Shown: in pieces, positions 8,019 through 25,946 of the stretch
Layout: every line of letters begins with the position of its first letter
Numbering within the stretch: position 1 is the first letter of the stretch
IMG/VR virus record: IMGVR_UViG_3300019458_000079
Coordinates: 1 to 26,651 of that record
Reading direction: 5' to 3' (one strand)
Source of the DNA: a virus
Length of the DNA: 26,651 nt
Translations under genes and position numbers: made by a program
Notes under the pieces: generated by a model
The model's database searches: none
Seen by the model: only the letters and a program-made list of their open reading frames with translations
Told to the model about the DNA's origin: nothing

Positions 8019-9497
8019 ATGGCACAGGCTTCAGGCTCAAGTGCAGAGATTTGGTATAAGATTGAACAGGCGAACGGCGTGACGCCGTCCGTGGACTCGG
8101 GCGCGTCTACAACGCTCGCGTCTGCTGTAAATCCGGGTGCGGCTTCTATCGTGGTCGCGTCGGATTCTGGTATCGCCGCGGGTGATATACTTCGCGTCGG
8201 GAACAGCCAGAACATGGAGTTCGTGAAGGTGGATGCGGGTTACGTGTCGGGGACAACAGTCACACTCGATACGAACACGAAGATCAACTACAGGCACGAG
8301 TCGGGCGAGGACGTGAAGGAAACGGACCCGACCCAGAACTGGTTCAAGCTCGGGAACGTGAGGTCGTTCACGCCGTCGGGCGGAAGGGAGCTCCAGAGGT
8401 CGCAGGCTTTATCGGGCTCTCGCGTGCTCTCCAACTTCCGCGAAGGAAACTACGACGCGGGCGCCGACATGACGGTCGAGCTCGACATCGAGACCGCCGG
8501 GCTCTTTTATCTCCACGCGCTCAATAACGACTATTACAGCGCGGGAGCGACGCAGCCTTCTTCGCCCGTGAGCACTACTCTCGCGAACGCGGCCGACAAG
8601 GGGGATACGCAGATAGAGGTCGCGAGCGCGACTAATATGGACACCGGCGTGTTCCTGCTGATAGGGACCGGCACGGGGGCCGAGATCGTGAAGGTGGGTA
8701 CGTACACGAGCGGCACTACGATAGACCTCGATCCGGACGCGCACCCGTTCGGTTTAAGGAAGTCTCACGCGAACGGCGTAGCGGTGGTCGAGAAGATAAA
8801 ACCCTTCACGCATACGATCTACAGGGGATCGACCATACCCGAGGGGATAAGCATACTTCTCAGGTTTACGGACATCGAGTCGCTCATGCTCATCAGGGGG
8901 AACAAGATATCCAACCTGACGCTGAGCGTCGATCCGAGCGACCTGCCGCAGCTCAATATGAACGTCGTCGGGAAGGCGTTTCAGATACTGTCCGAGAATA
9001 TTTTCGGGACGCCGACCGCGATATCCAACACTCCATACGTGCACTGGGAAGCGGACGTGCAGGTGGACGGCTCTCCCTTGACATCGAACCAGCTCGAGAA
9101 CCTGAGTCTCGTTATCGAGAACACGATACAGGGGAATTTCGTCGTGGGGTCGCCGATAAAGGGCGCGATCACGCCGGGGGAAGGGTCGGTGAGCGGATCG
9201 TTCACGTATCAGTTCGGGAGCCAGCAGTTCTCGGAGAAGACGATCGCCGGGACGGAGACGCAGCTCGATTTCATCTGGACATACATCGGCGACGATAACC
9301 ACCAGGTGACGCTCAGCGTGCCGAAGGCGAAATTCGAGGGGAGTCCGCATCCGGGAGTGGGATCGAAGGACCCGATCACCGATGAGAAGAGTTTTCTCGG
9401 GAGACTGGATACCGGCTCTTCGCCTGAGACGGATATTACGGTGACGGTGAAGAACACTCAGCCGACGGTTGAGTTTATGGTTGAGGCGAGCGCCTAA
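8019..9497 (+). CDS. Major tail tube protein with two inserted beta modules
   Basis: The 492-residue protein has a strong ribosome site (GGAGGTG, 8004-8010). N-terminal residues, the segment NWFKLGNVRSFTPSGGRELQ (about 107-126) and the long beta-rich remainder resemble siphophage tail tube subunits that polymerise around the tape measure. Two modules of about 70 residues (from about 29 and about 183: STTLASAVNPGAASIVVAS and STTLANAADKGDTQIEVAS) are homologous to each other and to the module in the connector at the start of the window. They are likely surface-exposed decorations, which explains the large size compared with a plain tube protein. The high GC and AGG-rich codons match the backbone. 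Confidence 0.72.
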   Translation: MAQASGSSAEIWYKIEQANGVTPSVDSGASTTLASAVNPGAASIVVASDSGIAAGDILRVGNSQNMEFVKVDAGYVSGTTVTLDTNTKINYRHESGEDVKETDPTQNWFKLGNVRSFTPSGGRELQRSQALSGSRVLSNFREGNYDAGADMTVELDIETAGLFYLHALNNDYYSAGATQPSSPVSTTLANAADKGDTQIEVASATNMDTGVFLLIGTGTGAEIVKVGTYTSGTTIDLDPDAHPFGLRKSHANGVAVVEKIKPFTHTIYRGSTIPEGISILLRFTDIESLMLIRGNKISNLTLSVDPSDLPQLNMNVVGKAFQILSENIFGTPTAISNTPYVHWEADVQVDGSPLTSNQLENLSLVIENTIQGNFVVGSPIKGAITPGEGSVSGSFTYQFGSQQFSEKTIAGTETQLDFIWTYIGDDNHQVTLSVPKAKFEGSPHPGVGSKDPITDEKSFLGRLDTGSSPETDITVTVKNTQPTVEFMVEASA

Positions 9498-9981: not shown

Positions 9982-10551
9982 ATGCCTGAAATTAAGAGTC
10001 TTACGAAGAATGTTTCGAATTATGTGACGATATACCCGTACAGGGAGATCGAGGACGAGGACTGGCCCGCGTACCAGGACGAGAAGGGAGAGTGGGTCGG
10101 TTACGACGACGGGTGGCGCGAGGTGGGGTTCAAGTGCCCGTACCCGACCGTTGCCAGGCTTACGCAGATAAGGGACCTGACCCAGGACCTGACTGTCGAG
10201 GACAGGAGCTTCAAGATACTCGGCGGGGACCCGAAGCGGGCGGCCAAGTTCCTCGTGTATAACCTGATACAGGACATAGTGGGCCTGACAGACCAGGGTG
10301 AGAGGGTCCTTTACGACAAGGACACGAAGGAGTGGATCTATAACGAATTCTGCAAGTCCTCGTTCCTGCTTTCCAACTTCAGGTCGAGCTACGAGCTCAT
10401 AGCCGGGAAGGTGACGAAGGAGGAGAAGAAGGAAGAGGAAAATTTTTCGGAAACGTCAGAAAGTACTTCGAGAGGATCTTCGAGGGATGGGAAGTCCGGA
10501 TCAAGGGCGAGAAAAGAAGATACCGCGCTGACGCAATCGGACGCAGGGTAA
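9982..10551 (+). CDS. Tail assembly chaperone, short form (G-like)
   Basis: The 189-residue protein starts 5 nt after AAGGAG. It sits between tail tube and tape measure, the standard place for the tail assembly chaperone that binds the tape measure before tube polymerisation. After residue about 150 the reading changes to a low-complexity Ser/Arg/Glu tail (SETSESTSRGSSRDG), a sign that most of the useful C-terminus lies in another frame. A slippery heptamer at 10440-10446 allows a -1 shift into a long open frame (see next entries). The pattern equals lambda G/GT and its equivalents in most siphophages. The N-terminal domain (PEIKSLTKNVSNYVTIYPYR) has no other motif I can name. Confidence 0.75.
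   Translation: MPEIKSLTKNVSNYVTIYPYREIEDEDWPAYQDEKGEWVGYDDGWREVGFKCPYPTVARLTQIRDLTQDLTVEDRSFKILGGDPKRAAKFLVYNLIQDIVGLTDQGERVLYDKDTKEWIYNEFCKSSFLLSNFRSSYELIAGKVTKEEKKEEENFSETSESTSRGSSRDGKSGSRARKEDTALTQSDAG
10440..10446 (+). other. Programmed -1 frameshift site (A AAT TTT)
   Basis: The heptamer AAATTTT is in the correct phase (GAA AAT TTT) to let both tRNAs slip back one base. Upstream at 10419-10423 there is a GGAGG with further purine-rich sequence, which could pair with 16S rRNA and stimulate the shift. The -1 frame is open from before this point to 10937 without a stop. Confidence 0.85.
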
Positions 10552-11567: not shown

Positions 11568-11639
11568 TAGAAATTTGGGGATGTTTGGGGAGATGAAAGA
11601 GGGGTCAATTGCCGCGCTCTAAATGACAAGGGAAGGTGG

Positions 11640-12047
11640 TCAGGTGAATTCTTTGTAGAGGATGATGGCGACGAGGATGGATGTGAGGGCCAGGAGCACG
11701 TCGCGCAGAGTGAAGCCCCAGAACGTGCGGGCGGGGTCGGTGAGGTCGAGCGGGACCGGAAGGTGGTTCTCTCCGATGATCTCGGCTGCTTTGGGGGTAT
11801 CGAGCGGGATCATGGAGTCGCGGCCGCAGCGGGGGCAGACGCAGAATTTGACTCTGAAGAGCGTAAGCGTGTAGAAGAAGGCGACGGCGAAGACGATAGT
11901 CGCGGGGAGCCAGAGCTCGTTCTCGAAGACGCCGGCGAAGGCGAGGACGAAGGCGATCATCCAGAGGGCAGACTCGGTCTTGACGCTGCCGTGGGAGGAG
12001 GCGTCCTCGTAGCCGATGTAGAGGCAGCCGATGCAGAGTTTCTTCAT
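11640..12047 (-). CDS. Small membrane protein with paired CxxC motifs (cassette A)
   Basis: The 135-residue protein starts at 12047, 17 nt from the divergent tape-measure remnant. It has CIGC (5-8), two hydrophobic segments (about 28-42 and 46-63), CPRC (71-74) followed by MIPLDTPKA, and a third hydrophobic segment (about 115-131). The same plan of CxxC, membrane helices, CxxC and PLDxPEA occurs in two further proteins of this window. The cysteine pairs probably bind zinc at the cytoplasmic face. The gene has the GC-rich composition of the backbone, unlike its two relatives. Its function is unknown. A membrane protein next to the tape measure on the opposite strand could be a superinfection-exclusion moron; this is inference from position only. 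Confidence 0.65.
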   Translation of the reverse strand: MKKLCIGCLYIGYEDASSHGSVKTESALWMIAFVLAFAGVFENELWLPATIVFAVAFFYTLTLFRVKFCVCPRCGRDSMIPLDTPKAAEIIGENHLPVPLDLTDPARTFWGFTLRDVLLALTSILVAIILYKEFT

Positions 12048-12064
12048 TCACATAAGGATAACAG

Positions 12065-12415
12065 ATGGGATTGGTGGGGTTTGATGCGAAGGGGGCGAAG
12101 GAGATAAAAGAAAGACTCGAGAAATTCTTCCAGGGCGATTTACAAGGCCGGTTCCTGTTCGCTATAAGAGACTTCTTCCAGTTCGCATTCGAGCAGTTAG
12201 GCGTGCTGCCGGATGCAGCCAGGAGGTTTCTAGACGCCAAGTTTGAGGAATTCAAGAACGCTGGATCGAGAGAGGCGAGGGCGGCTGTCGGACAAGAACT
12301 GCTCGCGGATATAAACGCATTCGTTGATGCGTTCAATATCGTCTCAGGCAATGTGAACGACGCGATTGGGCAGACGATCGAGAAAGAAGAGTGGGAGTAT
12401 AGGTTGGCGGCGTGA
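12065..12415 (+). pseudogene. Tape measure remnant, cassette A
   Basis: This 116-codon ORF corresponds only to the end of the shared tape-measure domain (from FDAKG to NDAIGQTI) and then the short tail EKEEWEYRLAA. A ribosome site (AAGGA, 12054-12058) precedes the ATG at good spacing, so a short product could still be made. Compared with copies B and C, the N-terminal part and most of the shared domain are missing, apparently by one internal deletion that joined the upstream region to FDAKG. The 5' part resembles copy D (FLFAIRDFF), the 3' part copy C (REARAAVGQELLADINAF). Confidence 0.75.
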
Positions 12416-12827
12416 GGATACCTTATATATATAGAAATACCTCAAAATACAAATGATGAGATCCTGAATCGGGGTTCAGGATGACGGAAAATCAACAAAA
12501 TGTTGAATTTGGCGCTGAAATTTTGCAATTTGCGGAATTGGATAGAGAAATTATTGCAAAATGAAAGATTCAGAGAGATAAAATCTGCAATTTGAGGATT
12601 ATAAAGACTGTTAATCGACAACCTGAAGAATTCTGACAAGGAAAGTTGCAAATTGAAGAATTGGAGTGTGGAGAAGAGGTAAAAATACTCAAAATGAAGA
12701 ATTTTGAGGTTGGATATTGCAATCTGTAGATTTGAAAGGAGCCAAATCAATATAATGAAGAATTCTTAGAGAAAAAAATGTGCGAATTGCAATGCTGGGG
12801 AGCAAAGGACGCAGTTGAATGTGGTTA
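12416..12827. repeat. AT-rich degenerate repeat block 1
   Basis: This 412-nt block between cassettes A and B starts with ATACCTTATATATATAGAAA, then a REP-like hairpin (12461-12482), then about a dozen degenerate units spaced roughly 30 nt apart around cores such as TTGCAATTTGCGGAATTGG and TGCAAAATGAAGAATT. From about 12516 it aligns in order with the end of block 2 (from about 16490). The open frames on the minus strand here are compositional artefacts. Confidence 0.7.
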
Positions 12828-13145
12828 TCAATATTTTTGACAAGCACTAGCAATAGCTTTACTGCTGTCATAATAAATATTAACGCAAATGTCTTTTTGA
12901 GTGTATTTCATGCCCGCCGCAGCTATATCTTCCGCAAGATATTGGGCTTGTGTTTTCGGATTCATGCCTAGGACATCTCTATCAACCTTTACCCAAAGTG
13001 AAAGTGTTGTTTGCCACTCTACATGTTGAATATTGGGCTTTTCTAAGAGCAAGTTAGCAAATTCTTCTTGTTTCTCAGTCGGATTAAACCCACATGACAA
13101 TGAAAGAAATAACATAATGAAAATGAATTGTAACCTTCTAATCAT
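12828..13145 (-). CDS. Small putative lipoprotein (cassette B)
   Basis: The 105-residue protein has basic MIRR, a hydrophobic core (FIFIMLFLSLS) and a cysteine at residue 18, a pattern accepted as a lipoprotein signal although position -3 is Ser rather than Leu. The mature part is polar (PTEKQEEFANLLLEKPNIQH and later VNIYYDSSKA) with two more cysteines. It occupies the slot that holds CxxC membrane proteins in the other cassettes and is divergent from tape measure B (80 nt apart). It is AT-rich. Exclusion lipoproteins that block DNA entry are known (phage T5 Llp; Ltp of TP-J34, which acts on the tape measure), but I see no sequence similarity to them and the role is inferred. Confidence 0.55.
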   Translation of the reverse strand: MIRRLQFIFIMLFLSLSCGFNPTEKQEEFANLLLEKPNIQHVEWQTTLSLWVKVDRDVLGMNPKTQAQYLAEDIAAAGMKYTQKDICVNIYYDSSKAIASACQKY

Positions 13146-13225
13146 AAATAAAATATATGTATCAAATGTAATAAATGCAAGTTGGATAGTTTTTACGTTT
13201 TGCGGCTAGTTTGCTTGGAGGAATG

Positions 13226-16123
13226 ATGGCGGATATTAACAGTCTTGCATTGAAGGTGTCACTCGATATAGAAGGCTTCAAAGAAGCTAATACTGAAGCT
13301 GGTGAATTAGCTACATCATTTTCAAAGCTAGCTGATTCATTGAACCAGTCAGGACAAAAGATAGTAAGCACCTTCAGACAGATTTCAGAACAATTAGAGA
13401 TTCTAAAAAGCGAACTTCAAGGTGCTGAGGAAAAACTGTCTTTATTCGGCATTGAGTTTGATATATCTAAGGATCCAACAGAGTCACTTAAAGCGCTGAG
13501 CGACGCGATTAAAAATTTCAAACAGTCATTAGTATCGGGAAATGAGGATGCAATAAAGTTTATTGCAAAATTAATAGATGGATTCGCTGATTTAATTAAT
13601 TGGATGAATGAAAATATTCCCGGATTAACGCAAGTAATTACTTTAATCACAGGATTGACTTTAGCCTTTCTAGCCGCTGTGCCAGTAGTTGCAGCGATTG
13701 TTGCCGGATTTACACTATTAGCGGGTCTTTTCGGAATTACAGGAACGGCTGTGGCTGGATTTGCTGGTACAGCTATATTGGCTGTTGTAGCTATAGCCGC
13801 AATCTCAGCAGCAGTAATCAGTTTGATCCAGAATTGGGGTGCCCTAGTTTTGGCAGCACAAGTGACGTGGGAGGAGAACATTGTCCCAATCTTAGAGACG
13901 GTTGCGGGTGCCATAGCAGGAGTACTGGGGGGAATTGGAGATATAGCATTAATCATATGGGAAGGGGTAAAAGAAACCACGTCAGCGGCTTGGGAATTTA
14001 TCACGGAAGTAGTATCGAACGCTGTGAGTTTACTGATAAGGATTTTCCAGGGTATCGGAGAGCAGCTATCTCAGACCTGGGAAGTAGTTAAGCAGACTGC
14101 ACTAGCCGCTTGGGAGAGCATAAAGGAGATAGTTGGAAACGCTATAGAATCAATTAAGGGCTTTTTCGGGGCGGTAGTTGAAAGACTTTTCGAAGTATGG
14201 GAATCGGCTAAAGAGACTGCATCAAATGCCTGGGAATTAATAAAGCAGACGGTATCAATCGGAGTTGAGTCGATAAAGGGGCTCTTCAGCGGAATAAGTG
14301 AAAGTCTAACCGGGGTATGGGAAGGAGCAAAAGAAAAGGCATCGGAGGCATGGGAAGGTATAAAAGGAATTGTGTCGGGAGCTGCAGAATCGATAAAGAA
14401 ATTCGGGGAGGATATCAAGAATAGTATTATAAAGGCTTTCACTGACGCGTTCGATAAGGTTAAGGAAATCTTTTCGAACCTGCTCGGTGGATTAAAAGAA
14501 AGTTGGGATAACTTTATCAATAGCCTTCCATCCTTAGATTTTTTCAAGAAAGGGGAACAGCCGACGGTTCCAGAAAATCCTCTGCCTACTCCAAGCCCGG
14601 AATCGGGCGGCGGGCCTTCGGCGTTTCTTAATCAGGACATTATAGATCTGGCCCAAGGGTATAAAAACCTAGGCGATAATATTGATTTTGCGACCGGGAA
14701 GACAAAAGACTTCAACATCGCTGTTTTGACTGAGGATGAGTTGCTCCAAGGTTCAGTTGCAAGTCTAGTATTAAATGGGGGGATGCTAAAGAATAATGGT
14801 ACAGCAGCATCTGATTTAAAAACCAAATATGAGAGAGTAAAAGTAGCAATAAATAATACTTCGGAGTCACTTGATAACGCCGGTATAAGCGCTGAAAACA
14901 CAAGTGAAAAATTCGAGCAGCTTGAGAATACTGGCGGGTTTTTTGAAGGGATAAAGCAGGGGTTCGTAGATTTTGTAGAGAATGTGGAGAGCAACAGCGA
15001 GCTTATGGCTGATTTCTTTGCAAATACGCTCTCGCAGATGAGTCAGAGTTTCAGCGATTTGTTTTTCAACGTACTCACCGGGAGATTCGACGACCTCAAG
15101 GACCTTGCGAAGCAGGCGTTCGAAGCGATACTGAGGGCTTTCCTCGACCTGGTAAGCGCGATTGCGACGAGGCAGATAGTATTGAGCATAGGCGGGTTAT
15201 TCGGAATAGGAAAAAGCGCGCAAGCTGCAGGAGGAGGGGGTAATCCGGTTGACATCGCGCAACAGGGGGCTGGTGTTGTTGGCAGCGGATTTGACTTGTT
15301 CGGCTCAGGAGGGGCATTTTCTACGCTGGGTCAGGGGTTAGGGTTGATAGCCCCGGTAAGTGGGGCGATAACTGCTGCGGAGGCTGTAGGAGCACCGGCG
15401 GGAGTGGGTTCGCTAATTGCTGCGCTCGAACCCGGAACAACCCTTGCTCCCGGATTTCTCGCCACGGCGGGGGCGGCGGTAACTATCGTCGGTGCGGTGC
15501 TTGCTGCTGCTGCACTTGCTTTCACGATAATCGCTCCACTTCTTGAGAAGACGCCAAGATTGGACATAGACTTCGATTCCGTGAAAACAGAGGCTGGGAG
15601 GAGGGCTGCGTTAGTCAGTGAGCTCTTGGACGACGACTTCCTGAAAGACGAAATAATAGATATATCGGTAAAGCGGAAGGCGGGTCTGGGGCTTGGAGGG
15701 GACGAGGGGATAAAGGACATACTCGCGGACGCCATACAGGTCGCGGTGAATAACCTGCTGGATATAATCAACAAGCTGCCGACTGACCTTGCGGACACCC
15801 TGACGGAGGAGCTCCTGAATACACCGCTCGACACGGAGACGGAGGTAGCCGGGGAGAGACTGTTCGAGTTCGATGCAAAAGGCAAGAAGATAGGCGAGAA
15901 ATTCAATCAGCTGATAAACGGGGAGATACAGGCTAAGTTCCTATTCGCGGTGGATGGGTTCCTGCAGACGATGTTCGAATCGCTGGGGGTGCTGCCGGAG
16001 GCCGCGGAGGCGTTCGTAGATGAGCAGTTCGATGCTTTCAAGAATGCAGGATCGAGAGAGGAGCGGGCGCAGATAGGGCAGACGATAGAGAATGAGGAGT
16101 GGGAGTATATGCAGGCTGCGTGA
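13226..16123 (+). CDS. Tape measure paralog B, truncated at C-terminus
   Basis: ATG 13226 is best placed behind GGAGG (13217-13221). The 965-residue protein has a unique N-terminal part of 569 residues: helices, a long hydrophobic region (about 133-240), and four exact 40-residue repeats with paired tryptophans (W245/W256, W285/W296, W325/W336, W365/W376). From G570 (GGFFEGIKQGF) it enters the domain shared with C and D: the tape-measure motif FSDLFFNVLTGRFDDLKDLA, a Gly-rich stretch, then KTPRLDIDFDSVK. It ends in ENEEWEYMQAA where copy D continues for another 500 residues. A 26-residue segment present in C and D is missing just before the end. The first 1.7 kb are AT-rich, the shared part GC-rich. 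Confidence 0.75.
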   Translation: MADINSLALKVSLDIEGFKEANTEAGELATSFSKLADSLNQSGQKIVSTFRQISEQLEILKSELQGAEEKLSLFGIEFDISKDPTESLKALSDAIKNFKQSLVSGNEDAIKFIAKLIDGFADLINWMNENIPGLTQVITLITGLTLAFLAAVPVVAAIVAGFTLLAGLFGITGTAVAGFAGTAILAVVAIAAISAAVISLIQNWGALVLAAQVTWEENIVPILETVAGAIAGVLGGIGDIALIIWEGVKETTSAAWEFITEVVSNAVSLLIRIFQGIGEQLSQTWEVVKQTALAAWESIKEIVGNAIESIKGFFGAVVERLFEVWESAKETASNAWELIKQTVSIGVESIKGLFSGISESLTGVWEGAKEKASEAWEGIKGIVSGAAESIKKFGEDIKNSIIKAFTDAFDKVKEIFSNLLGGLKESWDNFINSLPSLDFFKKGEQPTVPENPLPTPSPESGGGPSAFLNQDIIDLAQGYKNLGDNIDFATGKTKDFNIAVLTEDELLQGSVASLVLNGGMLKNNGTAASDLKTKYERVKVAINNTSESLDNAGISAENTSEKFEQLENTGGFFEGIKQGFVDFVENVESNSELMADFFANTLSQMSQSFSDLFFNVLTGRFDDLKDLAKQAFEAILRAFLDLVSAIATRQIVLSIGGLFGIGKSAQAAGGGGNPVDIAQQGAGVVGSGFDLFGSGGAFSTLGQGLGLIAPVSGAITAAEAVGAPAGVGSLIAALEPGTTLAPGFLATAGAAVTIVGAVLAAAALAFTIIAPLLEKTPRLDIDFDSVKTEAGRRAALVSELLDDDFLKDEIIDISVKRKAGLGLGGDEGIKDILADAIQVAVNNLLDIINKLPTDLADTLTEELLNTPLDTETEVAGERLFEFDAKGKKIGEKFNQLINGEIQAKFLFAVDGFLQTMFESLGVLPEAAEAFVDEQFDAFKNAGSREERAQIGQTIENEEWEYMQAA
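13955..14434 (+). repeat. Four 120-bp coding repeats in tape measure B
   Basis: Residues about 244-403 of the protein form four 40-residue repeats of the form W-E-x-x-K-E-x-x-x-x-A-W-E-x-I-K, with Trp pairs 11 residues apart. Regularly spaced aromatic residues are typical of tape measures, which are thought to contact the inner tube wall at fixed steps. Confidence 0.75.
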
Positions 16124-16762
16124 GGGATACCTTATATATATAGATACCTCAAAATGCAAAGGATGAGATCCTGCAAAATGCGGAATTGAGGGATGGGATT
16201 GTGCAATTTGCGGACTGAAAATTACGCGAGTTAGTAAAATGAAGAAATAAGAGGCAAGAAATCCGCAAAATGTTGAATTTGGTTATTTGAACAATGCAAA
16301 ATGTAAATTAGAGGGGAATCGAATCTGCAAAATGAAGGATTGGTAAGGCGGATATTGCGGATTGCAGAATTGGATATTAGGTGGCTTCAAAAGGTGAATT
16401 CTGCAAAATGAAGAATTATCGTGATGGAATTTTGCAATTTGCAGACTGAAAGTGTGATTTAAACTGCAAAATGAAGAATTTGAGGTGATTGGATTGCGCA
16501 ATTTGCGGAATCGGACGGAGAAAATATTGCAAATTGAAAGATTCTGAGAGGTGAAATCTGCAAATTGTGGATAGTAAAGACTGCTAATCAACAAATTGAA
16601 GAATTCTGGCAAGGAATGTTGCAAATTGAGGAGTTCGGTGTGGAGGAGAAGTAAAAATATGCAAAATGAAGACGGATATTGCAAAATGGAGAACTAAAGA
16701 GCCAAATAATCAACAAAATGAATGATTGTGAGGAAGAAAATTCGCAAATTGCAATGTTGGAA
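16124..16762. repeat. AT-rich degenerate repeat block 2
   Basis: This 639-nt block between cassettes B and C begins with ATACCTTATATATATAGATA, as in block 1, and then holds about twenty degenerate units spaced about 25-35 nt apart. Cores alternate between GCAAAATGAAGAATT and GCAATTTGCGGAATT types, which differ mainly in AAAATG versus AATTTG. The spacers are not conserved. The unit is too degenerate for a CRISPR repeat and no gene is supported here. Confidence 0.75.
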
Positions 16763-17152
16763 TTACGGCTTAGGGGTTTCTAATGAATCCGGATTTGGCT
16801 CATTCTGAGCAGTTTGGCGAGTATTTTCTCCGACTTTTAGATCGTATTTTTTGATTGTATTGATAGCCTCGGGGTCATCGAGAGGTAGCATTTCTTTATT
16901 GCCGCATTTTGGGCAGGTTTTTGTTTCTAGAAAGGATAATAAAATAGCAGTAATACCTATCGATAGGGCAATAAGTGAATATAAAAATGAAGGAAATGAA
17001 AAGTCAGAAGTCCCTGTACCATATGATTCGTGTTGTACAAAGCTAAACAAAAAACCAATTCCGAAGATCAAATTGCCATACGGAATCCATTTATCTAGGA
17101 ATCTTTTATTCGCCTTTCCTAAATAGTGGCATTTAGGGCAAAGTTTACTCAT
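16763..17152 (-). CDS. Small membrane protein with paired CxxC motifs (cassette C)
   Basis: The 129-residue protein has CPKC at 5-8, two hydrophobic segments (about 25-39 and 54-75), CPKC at 80-83, then MLPLDDPEAINTIKKYDLKV and a polar tail ending SLETPKP. The cassette D relative shares both cysteine pairs, the DNPEALNLIIKYDLKLG block and the ending SLETPK. The two cysteine pairs would form a zinc-ribbon-like knuckle joined through the membrane segments. It is AT-rich and divergent from tape measure C. Its function is unknown; the position fits an exclusion or injection-modulating role, which is inference. Confidence 0.68.
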   Translation of the reverse strand: MSKLCPKCHYLGKANKRFLDKWIPYGNLIFGIGFLFSFVQHESYGTGTSDFSFPSFLYSLIALSIGITAILLSFLETKTCPKCGNKEMLPLDDPEAINTIKKYDLKVGENTRQTAQNEPNPDSLETPKP

Positions 17153-17234
17153 AAATAAATTATAAACAGTTTACGAAGTAAAATCCAGTTGTAAGCTGGA
17201 AATGAAAGATTGTCATTGAAACGATTCATGTCAT

Positions 17235-17258
17235 ATGCCACCTAATATAGGATGGCAT
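17235..17258. other. Hairpin in the divergent intergenic region of cassette C
   Basis: ATGCCA and TGGCAT enclose CCT/AGG with an AATAT loop and one bulged base. It lies between the divergent starts, where a regulator could bind, or where a transcript leader could fold. No T-run follows, so it is not a terminator. Confidence 0.35.
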
Positions 17259-17290
17259 TATCTTGACCAATAATTCTAAACAAGGAGAAA

Positions 17291-17350
17291 ATGGTTAACG
17301 ATAAATTTAGATTCGTTAGCTTATCTAAATACAATGCCTATTATAGTTAA
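17291..17350 (+). CDS. 19-residue leader ORF overlapping tape measure C start
   Basis: ATG 17291 follows AAGGAG (17282-17287) and encodes MVNDKFRFVSLSKYNAYYS, stopping at 17350, inside the beginning of tape measure C (ATG 17334) in another frame. Tape measure C has no ribosome site of its own, so its translation may depend on this leader by coupling, or the start of C may have been damaged by a frameshift. Copies B and D have normal ribosome sites and no such leader. Confidence 0.4.
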   Translation: MVNDKFRFVSLSKYNAYYS

Positions 17351-19745
17351 GGTTGAAATCGACAAAGAACAATTTAAGGAACTTAGTACATTTGAACAAT
17401 ACTTGATAAAGACAGTGGATGATCTATCAAAGAAACTATCAGAAATACTTCCTATGGCTGGAACGATGCGGTCAGGTGACATAGGTATCGGACCTTCGGG
17501 CTTACTCAAAGGTATCATTACATTTTTATTAGGCTTTTTCGGCGAGGATGCTCTAAGAGAAGCGATGCGTATTGTAAGAGAATCAATACCAAAATCTCCC
17601 GAGGAAAATTTAGATGATTTGAAAGAAAGAGTTCAAGATCTAATTGATACTGCAACAGAAGCGAAGCTAATAGTTGAAGGCAGTGGTGAAATACCTAATT
17701 CCATTACGAAAGGCGATTTGCCACGTGACTTAGAGTTTATTCAGGAAAGGATAGATTCATTAAAGGAGTTACTTCTTAAAATTAATTCTCTTCAAGATGA
17801 ATTCAAGTCTGATGCACTTAAATCAGCGGACTCCCCTATCTCTTTTGGTGTAATAATACAAAAGAGAGAAGAGCAGATGGAGGCAGTAAAAAAAATACAG
17901 GAGGAGTTAAATGCGATACTAGAGCCGGGAAATGAAAAAATCAAGGAGAGAAGTCAGTTATTACCATTGCTCGAAAACGCGTATGCGAGTTTAGATGGAC
18001 CAACTTCTGATCTTATACTTGGTCAGGGCTTGATGTCTGATGCTTTTATCGGATCGACGCTAAGCGCGGTTAAGTTAGCGAAAGAGGGTATTAATCCGTT
18101 GACGGGAAAAGCGAGTGAGCTTGGAATATCGATTGAAGACTTATTTCAAAATACTAGCGAAGGGGCAGTGATATTCGGGTTTACGAAAGAGGAACTTCTT
18201 GGTCTTCGTGATGCTACAGATGAAGCGGCGAAGTCTACTGAATACCTGGGGGAGAACGGGTTTACGGCTGTCAAAGAGAATGTGGAACAGGCTGGAAACA
18301 AGCTGGGAACCCTGGATGCGAACCTGATGAATGTAGCGGATCGGAATAAGGATGTAGTGGATTCGCAGGACCAAGTGAATCAGGTGGTGGGAGAGAGCGG
18401 TGTTGTCTATGACGACGCAAGCAAGAGTGTGGAGAACTATGGGGATACTGTAGAGCAGGTACAGAATCAGGGAGGGTTTTTCGATGGAATAAAGCAGGGG
18501 TTCATTGATTTTGTGGAGAGCGTGGAGAGTAACAGCGAGCTTATGGCTGACTTTTTTGCTAATACCCTCTCGCAGATGTCACAGAGCTTCAGCGATCTGT
18601 TTTTCAACGTCATCACCGGGAGATTCGACGACCTCAAGGACCTGGCGAAGCAGGCGTTCGAGGCTATTCTCCGTGCATTTTTGGACCTCGTAAGTGCGAT
18701 AGCGACTAGGCAGATAGTTATTAGTATAGGCGGGTTATTTGGAATAGGAAAAGGCGCGCAAGCGGCGGGGGGAGGCGGAGGAAGTCCAACCGATATTGCA
18801 CAACAGGGGGCTGGTGTTGTTGGCAGCGGTTTAGGACTGTTTGGAAGTGGGGGAGCCTTTGCTACATTAGGGGCCGGTTTAGGTATAGGGGGTGCTACGG
18901 TAGCACCAATAGCAACTACGGGCGTAGGTGCTCTAAGTTTAGGGGGTCAAGCATCTATATTTTCAGCTTCCCTACCTAGTGCTTTTACAGGACCAGGCTT
19001 TTTAGCGACAGCGGGTGCTGCAATTACTGTTGTCGGGGCGGTATTAGCGGCAGCGGCGCTAGCGTTCACGATAATCGCTCCATTCCTTGAGAAGACACCC
19101 AGATTGGACATTGACTTCGATTCTGTAAAAACGGAAGCGGGGAGGAGGGCAGCGCTTATAAGCGAGCTGCTCGACGACGACTTCCTCAAGGACGAGATCA
19201 TAGACATCTCGGTTAAACGGAAAGCGGGTCTAGGGCTCGGAGGGGACGAGGGAATAAAGGACGTGCTCGCGGACGCCATACAGGTCGCGGTGAATAACCT
19301 GCTGGATATCATAAACAAGCTGCCCACTGACCTCGCGGATACGCTCTCGGAAGAGCTCCTGAACACCCCGCTCGATACTGAGACGGAAGTAGCCGGGGAG
19401 AGACTCTTCGAGTTCGACGCAAAGGGGAAGAAGATAGCCGAGAAGTTCAATCAGCTCATAAACGGGGAGATACAGGCTAAATTCCTCTTTGCAGTGGACG
19501 GGTTCCTGCAGACGATGTTCGAATCGCTGGGAGTGCTGCCCGAGGCCGCCGAGGCGTTCCTCGATGAGAGGTTCGAGGAGTTCAAGAACGCGGGATCGAG
19601 AGAGGCCAGGGCGGCTGTCGGACAAGAACTGCTCGCGGATATAAACGCGTTCGTGGACGCGTTCAATATTGTGTCGGGGAACGTGAACGATTCGATAGGG
19701 CAGACGATACGGAATGAGGAGATGGAGTACAGGCTGGCGGCGTGA
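17334..19745 (+). CDS. Tape measure paralog C, truncated at C-terminus
   Basis: The 803-residue protein has a unique 379-residue N-terminal part, predicted mainly helical with one hydrophobic stretch (LLKGIITFLLGFFG, about 58-71). It is a distant relative of the N-terminus of copy D (SGEIPNS...PRDLEFIQERID against SGEIENS...PRDLEFIEERID). From G380 (GGFFDGIKQGF) it carries the shared domain, close to copy B through the Gly-rich stretch, and ends RNEEMEYRLAA at the same point as copies A and B. The 5' part is AT-rich and the shared part GC-rich, giving a sharp composition change inside one gene. Whether it is expressed is unclear because its start lacks a ribosome site. Confidence 0.75.
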   Translation: MPIIVKVEIDKEQFKELSTFEQYLIKTVDDLSKKLSEILPMAGTMRSGDIGIGPSGLLKGIITFLLGFFGEDALREAMRIVRESIPKSPEENLDDLKERVQDLIDTATEAKLIVEGSGEIPNSITKGDLPRDLEFIQERIDSLKELLLKINSLQDEFKSDALKSADSPISFGVIIQKREEQMEAVKKIQEELNAILEPGNEKIKERSQLLPLLENAYASLDGPTSDLILGQGLMSDAFIGSTLSAVKLAKEGINPLTGKASELGISIEDLFQNTSEGAVIFGFTKEELLGLRDATDEAAKSTEYLGENGFTAVKENVEQAGNKLGTLDANLMNVADRNKDVVDSQDQVNQVVGESGVVYDDASKSVENYGDTVEQVQNQGGFFDGIKQGFIDFVESVESNSELMADFFANTLSQMSQSFSDLFFNVITGRFDDLKDLAKQAFEAILRAFLDLVSAIATRQIVISIGGLFGIGKGAQAAGGGGGSPTDIAQQGAGVVGSGLGLFGSGGAFATLGAGLGIGGATVAPIATTGVGALSLGGQASIFSASLPSAFTGPGFLATAGAAITVVGAVLAAAALAFTIIAPFLEKTPRLDIDFDSVKTEAGRRAALISELLDDDFLKDEIIDISVKRKAGLGLGGDEGIKDVLADAIQVAVNNLLDIINKLPTDLADTLSEELLNTPLDTETEVAGERLFEFDAKGKKIAEKFNQLINGEIQAKFLFAVDGFLQTMFESLGVLPEAAEAFLDERFEEFKNAGSREARAAVGQELLADINAFVDAFNIVSGNVNDSIGQTIRNEEMEYRLAA

Positions 19746-20092
19746 GGGATGGCATATATAAGGTATGGATTCCCGATCGGAGTCGGGAATGACAAGAAAT
19801 AATCTACAAAATGAAGAATAAATAGAAAAGAGTATGCAAAATAGTGATTTTGGTGATGGGATTGTGCAATTTGTGGATTAGAAGGAGATTAAATCCACAA
19901 AATGAAGGATACTGCCAGGGAAATGTTGCATATTGCGGGATTGGAGGACTGGAAGATTGCGGAATGAGGGAAATCCGCAGATTGAGGATTTCGGAGAAGG
20001 GAAGATTGCAATTTGAAGAATAGAAAGTCCATAAATTCTTCAAAATGAGGAATTAGCAGAGGTAAATCTGCAAATTGAGGATTGGGAGGATG
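19746..20092. repeat. AT-rich degenerate repeat block 3
   Basis: This 347-nt block between cassettes C and D opens with ATATATAAGGTAT, which is the reverse complement of the opening of blocks 1 and 2, and a REP-like hairpin (ATTCCCGAT/GTCGGGAAT, 19770-19791). About ten degenerate GCAAAATGAAGAAT / GCAATTTGAAGAAT units follow. No gene is supported. Confidence 0.7.
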
Positions 20093-20464
20093 TTACTTTG
20101 GTGTTTCTAATGAACCTGTGCTTGGTTCGTTTTGAGAGTGTGGGAGAGGATTGTTGCCGAGTTTGAGGTCGTATTTTATAATTAAATTGAGTGCCTCAGG
20201 GTTATCAAGCGTAAGCATAGGTTTATGTTTGCAATTTGGACAGGTTGAGTTGCCTGTGAAGTGACTAATAATAACCTTTACCCCTCCGAATACTATTACA
20301 CCGGAAATCGCGGCAGTAAATAAGCCTAAAATAAGAAGAGAATCATAAGCTTTGAAGAAAATAAAAATGCCAAACATTATAATAGCTACCCCCAGAGCCA
20401 AATTACTGAAAATAGACTGTTTACCTTTTCCTATAAAGTGACACTTGGGGCAAATTTTATTCAT
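20093..20464 (-). CDS. Small membrane protein with paired CxxC motifs (cassette D)
   Basis: The 123-residue protein begins at MNKICPKC (start 20464); the frame is open 16 codons further but the family alignment places the start here. CPKC at 5-8, two hydrophobic segments (about 21-38 and 42-67), CPNC at 75-78, then MLTLDNPEALNLIIKYDLKL and a polar ending SLETPK. It is clearly related to the cassette C protein and more distantly to that of cassette A. It is AT-rich and divergent from the only full-length tape measure (90 nt between starts). If the family gives exclusion, this one would be the partner of the active tape measure. Confidence 0.68.
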   Translation of the reverse strand: MNKICPKCHFIGKGKQSIFSNLALGVAIIMFGIFIFFKAYDSLLILGLFTAAISGVIVFGGVKVIISHFTGNSTCPNCKHKPMLTLDNPEALNLIIKYDLKLGNNPLPHSQNEPSTGSLETPK

Positions 20465-20554
20465 ACCAAGATAATAACGTAGAAAGGAACAACAAGCTAG
20501 TATAGAAATCACCTGTTAGCGGTAAAGAAATCGGACTTATATCGAGGGGAAAAA

Positions 20555-23500
20555 ATGAAAGAAGTCAGTGAATTGACAATTGCACTTGATGGAGATATTA
20601 CAAAATTATTGAGCAAGCTGGAAGAAATTAGGAAGTATATAGAAGACAAGCTATTTGCGCCAATAAACATTGATAAATCTTTTCTTTCGGATTTAAGTAA
20701 AACCATTGCAGAAAGCGCTAAAGCGATAGTCCCCAACTTACAAATATTGGTTAAAGAATTCCTCATTGGATTTATAGTAGCATACATACTAGGAAAAGTA
20801 ATAGACCCGATTTTCGATAAACTAAAGGAGGAGTTGTTTGAAATATTTCCATCCTTATCTAAGATATCTTTGCCAAGCATATTTGAGGGTGTCCCATCAG
20901 ATTTAGAGAAATTAGAAAACTTAAAAGATAAAACACAAGCCTATTTAGATTTAACATCAAAAGCAAAAAGCATAGTAATCTCAAGTGGGGAGATAGAGAA
21001 TTCAAATACAGAAAGCGGTTTCCCGCGAGACTTAGAATTTATTGAAGAACGCATTGATATTGCAAAATCTTTGATAGCAGAAATTAATCGATTAATTGAG
21101 GATATTAACTCGGATATACCTAAACTTTCTGTTGCAACACCAGAGAATACAATTGAGGCCCACGGGGTTGAGAACTTTTTCAAAGTAATGGAATTAATAA
21201 AGACAACAACTCCGTACAAGGATCAAATAATTAAAATAGAAGAAGATCTAAATAAATTACTGGAAGAAGTAAACAAAAACCTAATAGAGCACAGTCAGAT
21301 TATACCTGCAGTTGATAATGCAATTGTTGGATTGACTAATACTCAGAACACGTTGGTAACCAACAGTCAACACTTGTCTGATGCAGTGAAGGCGCAAAGT
21401 GGAGAGTTGAAGAATGGAAGTGAGATAATAAAACTTACTGAAGAAGATTTACTAAGCCTTGATGGCAAGCTGGCAATGGTGGGGGATGGGTTGGTTGCCG
21501 GTGCGGGGGCACAGAGTGAGTTTGCAGAATCCACGAAAGGCACAGTGGATCAATTAATGAATGAATCCGAAAGGATAACAAATCTCGATCCGAATTTGCA
21601 AAACCTAGCCAAGAGAAATGACGATGTAGCTATAGCACAAGAACAGATGAATCAGACAGTGGGAGATGGTAGTGCTGCTTTTGATAACGCGAGCGACAGC
21701 GTGGAAGGATATAGCGATACTCTCGAGAAGGTTGAAAATTCCGGTGGGTTCTTTGAGGGGATAAAACAAGGATTTAAAGATTTTGTAGAGAATGTGCAGA
21801 GCAACAGCGAGCTTATGGCTGATTTCTTTGCCAACACGCTCTCGCAGATGAGTCAGAGTTTCAGTGATCTGTTTTTCAACGTCATCACCGGGAGGTTCGA
21901 CGACCTGAAGGACCTTGCGAAGCAGGCGTTCGAGGCGATACTGAGGGCTTTCCTCGACCTGGTAAGCGCGATTGCGACGAGGCAGATAGTGATAAGCATA
22001 GCGGGGGCATTTGGATTCGGGAAGACAGCCAGTGCAGGTGGCGGCCCTTTTGATTTGGCTTCAGGTGCGATAAACACTGGCCTTGATATCGCGGGTTTAA
22101 TCGGCGGCGGCGGGCAAGCCGTGTCCTTCGCAACGGCTGGTGGTGGTATAGCTACGGATGCTATCGCGGGGACTCTCGGTGGCATTCCGATTACAGAAGG
22201 GGCGACGGTCGGACTAGGTCTAGCTCCGGGCGGGACAGGAATCCTTGCCTCTATAGGTTCAGCTTTGCCCTATATAGGTGCAGCATTAGCCGCCGCTGCA
22301 ATCATTATCCCTCTTGTCGCTGGACTCTTTAAAAAAACTCCTCGGCTCGATATAGACTTTGACTCGGTTAAGACGGAGGTAGGTCGGAGGGCTGCCGAAG
22401 TCGCGGAGTTTTTAGACCCCGAGTTCTTTAAAGAGCAGATCGCTCAAATATCAGTTAAACGTGGCGGTGTGGGATTGGGACGCGGCGGCGATGAGGGTAT
22501 AAAGGACATAATTCAGGAGAAGATAGAAGAAACCATTGACGCAGTGCAGGCGATCATATTCAAGCTGCCATCCGACCTGGCGAAGCAGCTTAACGAAGCC
22601 CTTTTAAATACCCCAGTGGATATAGAAACTGTCGTGAAGGGGGAAAGGCTCCTTGAGTTCGATGCGAAAGGGAAGGAGATAAAGAAGAAATTCGAGGCGT
22701 TTATCAACGGTGAGCTGTCTGCGAAATTCTTATTCGCTATAAGAGACTTCTTTACAGGGGCTTTTGAAGCCCTGGGAGTCCTGCCTGAGAATGCGCAGGC
22801 GTTCGTAGACGAGCAGTTCGATGCGTTCAAGAATGCAGGATCACGAGAGGAGCGGGCGCAGATAGGGCAGGAATTCCTCGCGAGCTTCAACGCCTTCGTG
22901 GACGCGTTCAATATAGTGTCCGGTAACGTGAACGATTCGATAGGGCAGACGATACAGAGCATAAACAGCCTGTCGAGTAAGCTCGGATTCGACGCCGTGC
23001 CTTCGATCGGAGAGCTTACCGACAAGCTAGGCGAGCTGCTCGAGAACGCGGAGCTTGACGCCGAGACGGTGCAGATGTACGCCGACCTCAGGAACGCGAT
23101 AGTCCAGGGCATATCGGACATAATCAACTCCATAACGGGACTCATAGGGAAGATAAGCCAGCTCAACTCGACCATAGTGGGCCTCGGCGGCGCGGCCGTG
23201 AACATCATCCCGTTCCTCGACCAGGCGCAGGCGAAGCTCATTGAATTCTACACGACGAACGTGGGCAACCTGTCGCTCGGCGAGCAGGAGACGTTCCTCG
23301 ACGAAATACTCGGCATTGCGAACGCGAAGTTAGCCGAGGAGCAGGCGGCGTTCCAGAGGGCGCAGGCGGCGCGGCAGAGGGCGGAAGAGGCGCAGAGGGC
23401 GAGGATACAGAAGAGGATCGACAACCTGAATAAAGAGAAGGACAAGATAAACGAGGTGTTCCAGAAGAGGATCGAGGCGCTCAACGAGGAGCTTCAGATC

Positions 23501-24526
23501 GCGGAGAGCTTCGCCCAGCTTACGGAGTCGATAAGACAGACGCTCGATTCGATAGTGTTCAGCCCGGAGAGCGTGCTCACGGGGGTGGAGCAGGTGAACG
23601 CGCTCCAGTCGAACATCACGGGCCTCCAGGCGGAGCTTGCGGGCACGAGGGACCCGGAGCGGCAGATAGAGATCGTAGGGAGGCTGGAGGAGGCGTTCAA
23701 GACGCTGTTCGATACGGCGGGGGACGCGTTCGGCGTGAACAGTCCTGAATTCGTCGCGATATTCGACCAGGTGACCGGGGGGTTGGAAAACCTGGCGGAG
23801 CTCACGGAGACGAGGGGGAGGTCGGTCGAGGAGATATCGGCCGAGATAGAAAGGCTCACGGCGGAGAACGAGGCTACGCTCAAGAGCATAGACGCGAAGA
23901 TCGAGGCCGCGCAGGAGAGGCTCGCCAATATAGGGCAGTCGACGGCGGACAACACGTTCCGCGCTTCGCAGGACCTCCGGGAGCTGTTCGAGTTCATAAG
24001 GAGCGAGTACATAAGGATACTCGAGGAGAGGTTCGCCGAGCTCGAAGAGGTGAGCGAGTTCGGGTTCAAGACGGAGCTTGAGGGGCTCGGCACGATTGCG
24101 CAGATCAACAACGAGCAGCTTACGGTGCTCAGGTCTATAAGCGATACGCTCACTTCGCTTCAGGGGTTCAGGCGGGGGACGGAGGGGATAAAGGACTTCG
24201 GCAGGGGGACACTCGCCGTGCTCCACGGCAGGGAGGCGGTGGTGACGGAGGACGACCTCCTTCAGCTGAGGACGGGGATCGTCAACCGGTTCGCCGCGGG
24301 ACTCGGCGAGGGGGCGGGAATAGTCGAGAGGTTTGCCGGCAGGGACGGCGGTGGAGAGGGGGCGGTCAACGAGATGCACGTGGATATAAACGTGAACGTG
24401 AACGGCGGCTCGGGGGCGGCGGCTTCGATCGGGAACGAGATAGAGAACATGCTCGTGAGGAGCATAAGGCAGGGGGGGAGGCTAAGGAGTGCGATACAGG
24501 AGGCGGGGGCGAGGAGGATGGGGTGA
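20555..24526 (+). CDS. Tape measure protein, full-length copy D
   Basis: The 1323-residue protein has ribosome site GAGGGGA (20544-20550). Residues 1-396 are AT-coded and variable, with one likely membrane segment (about 64-82). From G397 the shared domain contains SDLFFNVITGRFDDLKDLAK (lambda-type tape measure C-domain character), a Gly/Ala-rich region and KTPRLDIDFDSVK. After about residue 800 (GQTIQSINSL) comes a unique C-terminal region: coiled coil (about 925-985, RAQAARQRAEEAQRARIQKR), further helices, then the common tape-measure ending LAVLHGREAVV and a Gly-rich tail. By the usual rule of about 1.5 angstrom per residue a tail near 200 nm is expected. It should be the functional copy, scaffolding tail length and entering the host envelope at infection. 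Confidence 0.88.
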   Translation: MKEVSELTIALDGDITKLLSKLEEIRKYIEDKLFAPINIDKSFLSDLSKTIAESAKAIVPNLQILVKEFLIGFIVAYILGKVIDPIFDKLKEELFEIFPSLSKISLPSIFEGVPSDLEKLENLKDKTQAYLDLTSKAKSIVISSGEIENSNTESGFPRDLEFIEERIDIAKSLIAEINRLIEDINSDIPKLSVATPENTIEAHGVENFFKVMELIKTTTPYKDQIIKIEEDLNKLLEEVNKNLIEHSQIIPAVDNAIVGLTNTQNTLVTNSQHLSDAVKAQSGELKNGSEIIKLTEEDLLSLDGKLAMVGDGLVAGAGAQSEFAESTKGTVDQLMNESERITNLDPNLQNLAKRNDDVAIAQEQMNQTVGDGSAAFDNASDSVEGYSDTLEKVENSGGFFEGIKQGFKDFVENVQSNSELMADFFANTLSQMSQSFSDLFFNVITGRFDDLKDLAKQAFEAILRAFLDLVSAIATRQIVISIAGAFGFGKTASAGGGPFDLASGAINTGLDIAGLIGGGGQAVSFATAGGGIATDAIAGTLGGIPITEGATVGLGLAPGGTGILASIGSALPYIGAALAAAAIIIPLVAGLFKKTPRLDIDFDSVKTEVGRRAAEVAEFLDPEFFKEQIAQISVKRGGVGLGRGGDEGIKDIIQEKIEETIDAVQAIIFKLPSDLAKQLNEALLNTPVDIETVVKGERLLEFDAKGKEIKKKFEAFINGELSAKFLFAIRDFFTGAFEALGVLPENAQAFVDEQFDAFKNAGSREERAQIGQEFLASFNAFVDAFNIVSGNVNDSIGQTIQSINSLSSKLGFDAVPSIGELTDKLGELLENAELDAETVQMYADLRNAIVQGISDIINSITGLIGKISQLNSTIVGLGGAAVNIIPFLDQAQAKLIEFYTTNVGNLSLGEQETFLDEILGIANAKLAEEQAAFQRAQAARQRAEEAQRARIQKRIDNLNKEKDKINEVFQKRIEALNEELQIAESFAQLTESIRQTLDSIVFSPESVLTGVEQVNALQSNITGLQAELAGTRDPERQIEIVGRLEEAFKTLFDTAGDAFGVNSPEFVAIFDQVTGGLENLAELTETRGRSVEEISAEIERLTAENEATLKSIDAKIEAAQERLANIGQSTADNTFRASQDLRELFEFIRSEYIRILEERFAELEEVSEFGFKTELEGLGTIAQINNEQLTVLRSISDTLTSLQGFRRGTEGIKDFGRGTLAVLHGREAVVTEDDLLQLRTGIVNRFAAGLGEGAGIVERFAGRDGGGEGAVNEMHVDINVNVNGGSGAAASIGNEIENMLVRSIRQGGRLRSAIQEAGARRMG

Positions 24527-25127
24527 GGGGGCTTCGGCTGGGCACTTCGTGCGCAATGACAAGGAAAAGACAAAGAAAGGTGAAAGGCTATTTTTTTTAT
24601 CCTTCTTTTCCTTGATGAAAAGAAGCAAAAATCATCCGACTGAACATAATTTGCTAAAAATCTTATGTTGAAGCTAAAATCTTTCAATTGGAAAGCTGAA
24701 AGATTTTTATACGCTTCAACACTCGATTTTCTATACGCAAATTCTGTAATGTCGGGAAGAAAAAGATAGATTTCTCGATTTGGTTTGTGTGGATTGGATA
24801 CGATGTCAATGCGAGTTATTTGCAATCAGCGAAGAGCGACCAGTTCTTGCGCCCGCTCAGAACTGTTGGTCGAAATGACATTCAAAGATAAAGATGAGAT
24901 TCTGAGTCAAGCTCAGAATGACGGAAATTGGATATCGCGGCTGGAAGCCGCTCCTACGAGAATTTACTAAAGAGAAAGGCAAAATCCCCCTTAATTTGAT
25001 CTTAATAGCAGAGTCACTTCAACTAAGTGGCTGATTTGTTATCAACCAACTCCGACCAATTCCTCCGATGTGTCGGAATTGTTCCCCTTTACGTAAGGAG
25101 GGAAATTGAAAAGATCACGGATGAGAT
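24527..25127. repeat. Intergenic repeat region after tape measure
   Basis: This 600-nt stretch has no gene. It holds a CTTCGTGCGCAATGACA-type element, the second structured repeat (24602-24755), the GATAGATTTCTCG repeat (24765-24840), the GCAATCAGCG repeat (24819-24880), a hairpin ATTCTGAG/CTCAGAAT (24899-24919), the GCGGCTGGAAGCCGC palindrome (24935-24959), and a TCCCCC...CCTCCGATGTGTCGGA repeat (about 24985-25105) that recurs at 10995-11125. Confidence 0.7.
24602..24755. repeat. Structured dispersed repeat, copy 2
   Basis: It has the same leading hairpin as copy 1 (24602-24625, identical) and the same ATCATCCGAC element. The nested stems are kept with altered bases: AATTTGC/GCAAATT (24648-24654 with 24737-24743), TGTTGAAGC/GCTTCAACA (24666-24674 with 24713-24721) and AAAATCTTTCA/TGAAAGATTTT (24676-24686 with 24697-24707). 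CCGAC/GTCGG (24636-24640 with 24751-24755) closes it. Confidence 0.75.
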
Positions 25128-25946
25128 ATGGCGAACAGGAAAATGGCTAGGACATTTATGCCGGTGACGGTGACGTCGGCGACGACGGAGGCGGGGAGCT
25201 TCCCGAAGGAGAATATCACCGACAGGACGAGCCCGCAGAGGGCGTGGCGGAGTACGTCGATTGCTGCGGACCAGAGGGTGGTGATAGACATGGGCGCGGA
25301 GCAGACGGACGTTACGTGCTATCTCGACTGGGTGAACTTCGGCTCGTTCAAGTACCAGGAGTCGGCGGACGGCTCGACGGGATGGAGCAACATCGGCTCG
25401 ACGCGGACGGTTGAGAAGGACCCGATGCACGGGGTGTACCGGAGGGTGGATGATATAACCATGTCGAGCAAACAGTATCTCGGGATATTCATCCCCGCGC
25501 AGACGCCGGTGGATCCTTCGACGGGCTCAGGACAGGCGGCGGATTACTTCCGCATTGGGACGTTCTGCGCGCCTTCGCCGGTGGTGGAGCTGGATGCCGA
25601 GACGACGGTCGAGTACCCTTTCGACGCGGCGCTGCCTGAATCGTACATCGTCGAGAACAGGTTCCCCGGGGGGAAGACGGAGAAGATAAGGCTCGGGAGC
25701 CTCCAGCCGATGGTGATATCGTTCGCGCTCAAGACGGGGGCGATGCAGAACATCAAGGGCGCCCAGGTGGAGGAGATAGCGGACATGCTGAGGGACGGGA
25801 CCGGGACGCTCTGGCTCGACTTTAACCTCGGGGAGACGTGGCAGGCGTATCTGGTGAAGAAGGCGGGGGAATTACGGGCGAGCGTTACGACGCCAGCCGT
25901 GGGGACGGCCGATTTCGGGACGGTGCTGATGGAAGTGGTGGTGTGA
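25128..25946 (+). CDS. Distal tail / baseplate protein with discoidin-like N-terminus
   Basis: The 272-residue protein follows the tape measure, the usual place of the distal tail protein. The N-terminal half (ENITDRTSPQRAWRS, VVIDMGAEQTDVTCYLDWVN, then YRRVDDITMSSKQYLGIFIP) resembles the discoidin (F5/8 type C) fold. The C-terminal half (RLGSLQPMVISFALKTGAMQ, LWLDFNLGETWQAYLVK) is beta-rich. Residues 129-138, DPSTGSGQAA, are encoded by a copy of the CCTTCGAC palindromic repeat inserted in frame. The start is uncertain: ATG 25128 has a weak GGA at 25119, and ATG 25143 is an alternative behind AGGA (25137-25140). Confidence 0.55.
   Translation: MANRKMARTFMPVTVTSATTEAGSFPKENITDRTSPQRAWRSTSIAADQRVVIDMGAEQTDVTCYLDWVNFGSFKYQESADGSTGWSNIGSTRTVEKDPMHGVYRRVDDITMSSKQYLGIFIPAQTPVDPSTGSGQAADYFRIGTFCAPSPVVELDAETTVEYPFDAALPESYIVENRFPGGKTEKIRLGSLQPMVISFALKTGAMQNIKGAQVEEIADMLRDGTGTLWLDFNLGETWQAYLVKKAGELRASVTTPAVGTADFGTVLMEVVV
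25515..25532. repeat. Palindromic repeat core inserted within a coding gene
   Basis: CCTTCGACGGGCTCAGGA inside the distal tail gene matches CCTTCGACAGGTTCAGGA in the intergenic region at 10946-10963 (16 of 18 bases). It keeps the frame and encodes PSTGSG within a DPSTGSGQAAD loop. Confidence 0.7.

Follow-up and report, generated by a model that had tools for sequence, protein, structure and literature searches.

The closest described systems are the orphan CdiA-CT/CdiI and Rhs-CT/RhsI arrays, in which a full gene with a constant and a variable part is accompanied by displaced tandem copies, each retaining some of the constant region and a partner gene (PMC3150448). Reloading by recombination in the conserved region has been proposed for them, and a natural deletion was described in Y. 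pestis (PMC3150448). The phage locus reported here works like these arrays but is not one of them. It also combines a full gene with tandem displaced modules that retain part of the constant region, in mirror image: the variable part is N-terminal, the orphans lie upstream, and each orphan ends with a fixed cap. The variable part is the N-terminus of a tape measure, and Pfam and PHROG searches found no toxin family. Exchange of variable parts by recombination in the conserved region is reflected here in mosaic breakpoints (p ≤ 0.0005), with no single event observed. CDI/Rhs modules have a cognate immunity gene, while here a partner gene precedes each cassette and the pairing is non-significant. 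Translation initiation signals are mostly missing from CDI/Rhs orphans and are mixed across the copies of this array.

Further precedents concern superinfection and DNA entry. Exclusion by Ltp of TP-J34 depends on the tape measure (PMC3952083), and the same dependence is described for HK97 gp15 (PMC10883804). As presented there, the target or specificity determinant of both proteins is the tail/tape-measure region, and both are small prophage-encoded membrane proteins or lipoproteins, as are the small proteins of our locus (PMC3952083, PMC10883804). Ours differ from the proteins as described in those sources in having no detectable homology to them, in being several and different per locus, in standing antisense to the late genes, and in that their function is putative. 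Dependence on ManYZ and the inner-membrane entry route follow tape-measure residues 300-400 in lambda-like phages, and Bas14 escape mutants from the SNIPE membrane nuclease map to tape-measure residues 100-150 (PMC13190303). Tape-measure regions thus govern both the entry route and a membrane-based defence in that system; the small proteins studied here gave no sign of a nuclease domain. Duplication in tape-measure evolution is also reported for repeat units, which lie within one gene (PMC3271669), whereas here whole N-terminal cassettes are displaced together with partner genes. A described tape-measure array was not found in the open-access papers searched, in agreement with the original prediction.

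The window, meaning the whole stretch of DNA analyzed, is an entire metagenome-derived virus record of 26,651 bases. Its array (11640-24526) has the tail tube and chaperone genes on its left and, at 25128, a conserved tail gene on its right; it holds one full tape-measure copy (D), two long truncated copies (B and C), and a remnant (A), all on the plus strand (Table 1). Short direct repeats bracket the whole array (11066-11116, 25054-25104, 11123-11218, and 24754-24849). The first type also occurs at six sites in bacterial genome G032 and looks like a host-type dispersed repeat, which suggests a host related to G032. Between the tail terminator and tube genes (3537-7668), the window encodes a sulfotransferase-like protein (PF03567) and, at 4808-6235 (without a match in a Pfam search) and within 6094-7668, two secreted proteins that are related to each other and have proline-rich linkers; relatives have different genes in this region.

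Table 1. Features of the tape-measure array and its flanking genes in the window
Feature	Coordinates	Strand	Evidence or remark
Major tail (tube) protein gene	8019..9497	+	PF18906 Phage_tube_2 E=1.5e-21; phrog_290 E=1.7e-32; 76-94% identity in relatives; left context
Tail assembly chaperone-like gene	9982..10551	+	Location between tube and tape measure; 80-97% identity in relatives; left context
A-type small membrane protein, CxxC/TM helices/CxxC	11640..12047	-	Orthologues L002, L004, L006, L017, L018, L063, L064
Tape-measure remnant A (3' arm end + cap)	12065..12415	+	73% aa to C, 111 residues
Cap + stop A (EEWEYRLAA, stop)	12386..12415	+	TATA-rich palindrome after it, at 12417
AT-rich repeat block 1	12416..12827	.	
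Lipoprotein-like small gene preceding B; predicted secreted alpha/beta domain	12828..13145	-	Alignment, AlphaFold pLDDT 86
B N-part, 569 aa	13226..14932	+	PHROG tape-measure families to E=3e-37; four hydrophobic segments (hydropathy)
B 5' arm	14933..15184	+	nt identity 91% to D, 85% to C
B 3' arm, C-like then D-like at end	15545..16087	+	Breakpoint D residue 747; ~24 codons deleted
Cap + stop B	16094..16123	+	
AT-rich repeat block 2	16124..16762	.	Related to block preceding L016 full gene
Zn-ribbon two-TM small gene preceding C	16763..17152	-	43% aa to partner of L016 full gene
C N-part, 379 aa	17334..18470	+	Homology to D from C81 onward
C 5' arm	18471..18722	+	
C 3' arm	19089..19709	+	nt: 88-91% over most of length to L016 full gene; 60-63% to D
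Cap + stop C	19716..19745	+	
AT-rich repeat block 3	19746..20092	.	
Zn-ribbon two-TM small gene preceding D	20093..20464	-	Start placed by family alignment
D N-part, 396 aa	20555..21742	+	
D 5' arm	21743..21994	+	
D 3' arm	22331..22951	+	
D-only C-terminal part	22955..24526	+	51% aa to L006; also L016, L017, L020
Conserved tail gene downstream of D	25128..25946	+	70-86% aa in L006, L016; right context

The coordinates predicted for A (12065-12415), B (13226-16123, 965 aa), and C (17334-19745, 803 aa) hold, D spans 20555-24526 (1,323 aa), and all four are open frames. The shared domain of B, C, and D opens at GGFF(E/D)G after 569, 379, and 396 residues, exactly as claimed, with DNA identities of 60-91% and BLASTP E values down to 0, far past chance. 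A, B, and C share the common end that had been noticed, GQTI followed by (E/R)xEE(W/M)EY..AA and a stop, with about 24 arm residues missing directly before GQTI in B. D alone runs on, for about 520 residues instead of the 500 given at first, and relatives that have this type of C-terminal part carry one per locus. The statement that the N-parts differ is right for B, which is unrelated to C and D over most of its N-part, but not for C and D, which are homologous from C81/D109 onward (34% over 320 columns) and differ only in the first 80-108 residues. The B N-part has relatives in many Firmicutes phage tape measures, only across residues 245-450 and at about 30% identity; since this match is confined to a repeat-rich stretch, the donor phages are not nameable. 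Hydropathy indicates hydrophobic segments in the N-parts of B, D, L002_2, L016_t, and L016_D. Plausible ribosome sites precede B and L016_t, none was seen for L002_2 and L002_3, and C has a leader like that of L016_D.

The putative tape-measure identity of the copies rests on weak Pfam matches to Tape_meas_lam_C (below the cut-off, D included), strong PHROG matches for B, and the position after the tube and chaperone genes. In the window, L006, and L016, D and its counterparts lie between the tail chaperone and distal tail genes, the order found for functional tape measures. Searches of phage records with D, of viral contigs with the D protein, the D C-terminus, and the downstream tail gene, of genome contigs with the shared domain, and of Rfam gave no result. 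The cap sequence was found in array loci only. An origin of the cap at a tandem-duplication junction was rejected, as a search upstream of the array found no cap copy.

The AT-rich blocks that had been noticed between the cassettes were confirmed, and 30 of the 34 words CAAAATG, CAAATTG, CAATTTG, and CATTTTG in the window sit in these blocks, which make up about 5% of its length. The three blocks of the window and that of L016 (2404-3579) are composed of short, often palindromic units of the CAAAATG/CCACAAAATGTGG/ACACAAATTGTGT types; they vary between cassettes and move with them. In G032, the one exact unit tested occurs in the array only. These blocks might serve as a left-hand homology arm. 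No inverted repeats of at least 30 nt were found in 11000-25500, all copies being direct, and no recombinase was found among the proteins searched (Pfam and PHROG). Site-specific inversion or shufflon-type switching was rejected for lack of both.

A minus-strand gene stands ahead of every copy, as predicted. Its description as a membrane protein or lipoprotein is refined by our analysis: three of the four genes (at 11640, 16763, and 20093) belong to one two-TM family, and the lipoprotein type occurs only before B. Members of the family have an invariant Cys-x2-Cys near the N-terminus and another after a two-helix membrane hairpin, the C-terminal motif being CPxCxxxxMIPLDSPxA. The family, with a predicted architecture of two TM helices and a split zinc ribbon, is an undescribed one. 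It is present in 10 of 58 genomes of one bacterial phylum, mostly adjoining these tape-measure loci; it is nearly restricted to them and forms stacks of 4 to 7 genes. The A-type gene is first in the array in every case. The lipoprotein-like gene at 12828, with a predicted secreted domain (model pLDDT 86), has relatives in L002 and L018. Comparison of the small proteins with Pfam, PHROG, and PADLOC revealed no known exclusion family and nothing convincing, and a PDB fold search gave no match with E ≤ 0.001. A stand-alone zinc-ribbon two-TM gene was also observed in the same chromosomal context in two genomes (L068 3783-4124 and L067 4545-4862), with no phage genes seen nearby.

A search of relatives, recommended with the original prediction, identified the same cassette plan with other contents in virus L002 (IMGVR_UViG_3300028845_000195) and in the bacterial contig L016 (G032:C8, 134 kb). 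L002 has, in order, an A-type gene, a capped remnant, a lipoprotein gene, a capped 797-residue truncated copy, a second lipoprotein gene, and a third copy that runs off the contig end. In L016, a small-gene stack is accompanied by a full tape measure and by a truncated copy of 750 residues that carries the same cap. This recurrence bears on the concern that the array is an assembly artefact of collapsed or chimeric repeats, the former raised already in the original prediction. The record is metagenome-derived and other contigs stop inside the array or shortly ahead of it, yet the plan and cap are the same in three independent assemblies (the window, L002, and contig G032:C8) and the copies are too divergent for mis-joined reads. 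Contradicted by three independent array loci, an artefact is scarcely credible. A more distant phage, L021, has two tape-measure-like N-terminal starts (490-2003, 78% identical over 32 residues) that alternate with same-strand zinc-ribbon membrane proteins ahead of the full gene, one start lying in one reading frame with its zinc-ribbon neighbour; it is an independent case of the association between tape measures and zinc-ribbon proteins.

The shared region is mosaic in the codon alignment. Most of the 3' arm of B matches C (85-91% identity, against 60-64% to D), and its last 69 aligned bases again match D (94%). Breakpoints were located at D747 for B (W_B), D734 for A (W_A), D659 for L002_2, D569 for L016_D, and D605 for L017, all with permutation p ≤ 0.0005. 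The L002 copies are 93-98% alike mutually but about 66% identical to the window; in stretches where they share 93-96% of nucleotides with one another, identity to the window is about 66-70%. Past its breakpoint, copy 2 is 94-96% identical to copy 1, and copies 1 and 3 are 93% identical. In the L016 full gene, a middle segment resembling D (81%) is followed by a 3' arm resembling C (88-91%). Exact arm-to-arm matches within viruses measure 31-77 nt, which would be ample for general recombination. The shared arm is therefore well supported as a probable recombination zone. Direct tandem order and AT-rich repeats between units could also have been left by neutral tandem duplication in place with later divergence; but the arms of B and C differ by a dS of about 0.8-1 at a dN of about 0.02, the N-parts are unrelated (B) or only partly related (C/D), and the mosaics involve other viruses. 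In-situ duplication was ruled out on these three counts and is very improbable as an account of the array. The copies resemble cassettes that came from other functional phages by import or exchange, not recent in-situ duplicates.

Among the truncated copies, dN/dS is 0.01-0.08 with dS from 0.26 to about 1. Such low values suggest that the arms diverged under constraint, either in other functional phages at an earlier time or because the truncated copies are still used. Direct use is the essence of one alternative, in which B and C are working truncated proteins, for example decoys that bind the chaperones or tail parts of rival phages. The long open frames, purifying selection, and the plausible ribosome site before B would fit such a role, and interference with tail assembly is already known as a strategy (PMC10884400, PMC11364771). 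The orphans, however, lie on the late-gene strand, vary in number, decay in relatives, and have no positional conservation, and we regard decoys as improbable.

Decay is the basis of another alternative, passive displacement, in which new front ends are inserted by phage-phage recombination and the old ones are decaying debris, with no store being drawn on; selection would then act on the small membrane genes alone, whether because they stack exclusion or because they benefit the host in another way. It is favored by the decay of A and of L002_1 (an in-frame stop and no N-part) and by the bare cap relics of L016 (at 2389) and L017 (at 10734, in a locus with one full gene). It is also favored by L006, L018, and L063, whose small genes persist in the absence of tape-measure orphans. 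In L006, a stack of four small genes accompanies one full gene; L018, too, combines its stack with one tape-measure gene and, like L063, is a decayed prophage that has kept a stack. Purifying selection on the small genes points the same way: across loci of which some are decayed prophages, the dN/dS of A-type and b-type genes is about 0.07-0.17, a constraint that supports but does not prove a host benefit, as the divergence may partly predate the decay. Against this stand the long open frames of B, C, L002_2, L002_3, and L016_t, which have no sign of relaxed constraint (dN/dS 0.01-0.08), and the reappearance of pieces of C in the L016 full gene. We consider passive displacement rather unlikely, if worth attention. 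In L018 (9552-12164), a prophage remnant, a deletion has joined a tape-measure gene to a phage gene, and the resulting open frame codes for 870 residues; the fusion partner is a separate gene in L065, near a lysis-like gene.

The small gene, repeat block, and leader of the L016 full gene match those of cassette C (80% identity over 215 nt, with 77% for the leader over 73 columns), and an orphan in the window is thus partly the cassette in use in L016. N-parts and small genes appear separable, since the N-parts of these two cassettes differ. The idea that each N-terminus has a matched membrane protein gained no significant support: similarities of N-parts and partners were not significantly correlated in Mantel tests on 10 cassettes, run for four N-part lengths (p 0.06-0.76), and in L002 copy 3 and L017 the partners are of different types although the N-parts are homologous. 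Strict pairing is accordingly doubtful.

The anatomy of the array, its recurrence, the mosaic breakpoints, and purifying selection, all observed, point with moderate confidence to a recombination-fed store of tape-measure N-termini that is reloaded by crossing-over in the arm and includes candidate exclusion genes. The original proposal of such a store gains from the array in several viruses, the recombining domain, and the chimeric full genes of relatives, but switching within a lineage was not seen; no pair of close relatives differing by a swap was found, and the nearest virus, L003, ends before the array. The unit of the store would consist of cap and stop, AT-rich repeats, a minus-strand small membrane or lipoprotein gene, a tape-measure N-part, and the shared arm, with the constant C-terminal part continuing the last unit only and the last N-part serving as the working tape measure. 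Units would be added, removed, or converted when array copies, prophages, and co-infecting relatives cross over in the arm by homology, often unequally, so that the array may grow, shrink, and reload while displaced units remain upstream as capped orphans; single-crossover insertion or loss of a circular unit would be an alternative route. Because each unit has the cap at its left and the arm at its right, and the C-terminal part is attached to the last arm only, capped orphans would come to lie upstream with the full gene last. A dedicated recombinase would be unnecessary.

A swapped N-part may change the passage of the phage through the inner membrane, a role suggested by the hydrophobic segments in several N-parts and by published tape-measure work. 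The small genes, whose antisense orientation to the late genes makes expression in a lysogen possible, are plausibly exclusion or immunity proteins, and expressed from the prophage they would form a stack of host protections. Their candidate role is argued from position and orientation, from their stacked arrangement and membrane location, from their persistence close to defence genes in remnants of prophages, and from the Ltp and HK97 gp15 precedents; hydropathy, alignments, and the chromosomal loci L006 and L016-L018 identify them as small membrane proteins or lipoproteins in prophages. The decayed prophages retain them next to CBASS and patatin genes. In L018, SMODS and SLATT_4 (CBASS-type) genes (12169-13615) lie beside the small-gene stack, and in L063 a patatin gene (7838-8416) adjoins it, both in a defence-island-like arrangement. 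A selected function of switching plus exclusion is a plausible candidate reading.

The textbook variable parts of phages are tail fibres and receptor-binding proteins. Here the tape measure, the protein that opens the path across the inner membrane, is comparably diversified, beside stacked membrane-protein genes. A dedicated system of DNA-entry diversity, with banked front ends that each have their own exclusion protein and are swapped in the shared arm, is a tentative possibility. If it were real, lysogens would resist the banked types, and progeny phages would evade the exclusion of other lysogens. If the pairing holds, the array would amount to a phage version of the toxin-immunity arrays, and it would offer a direct genetic test of the tape-measure N-terminus in DNA entry and exclusion.
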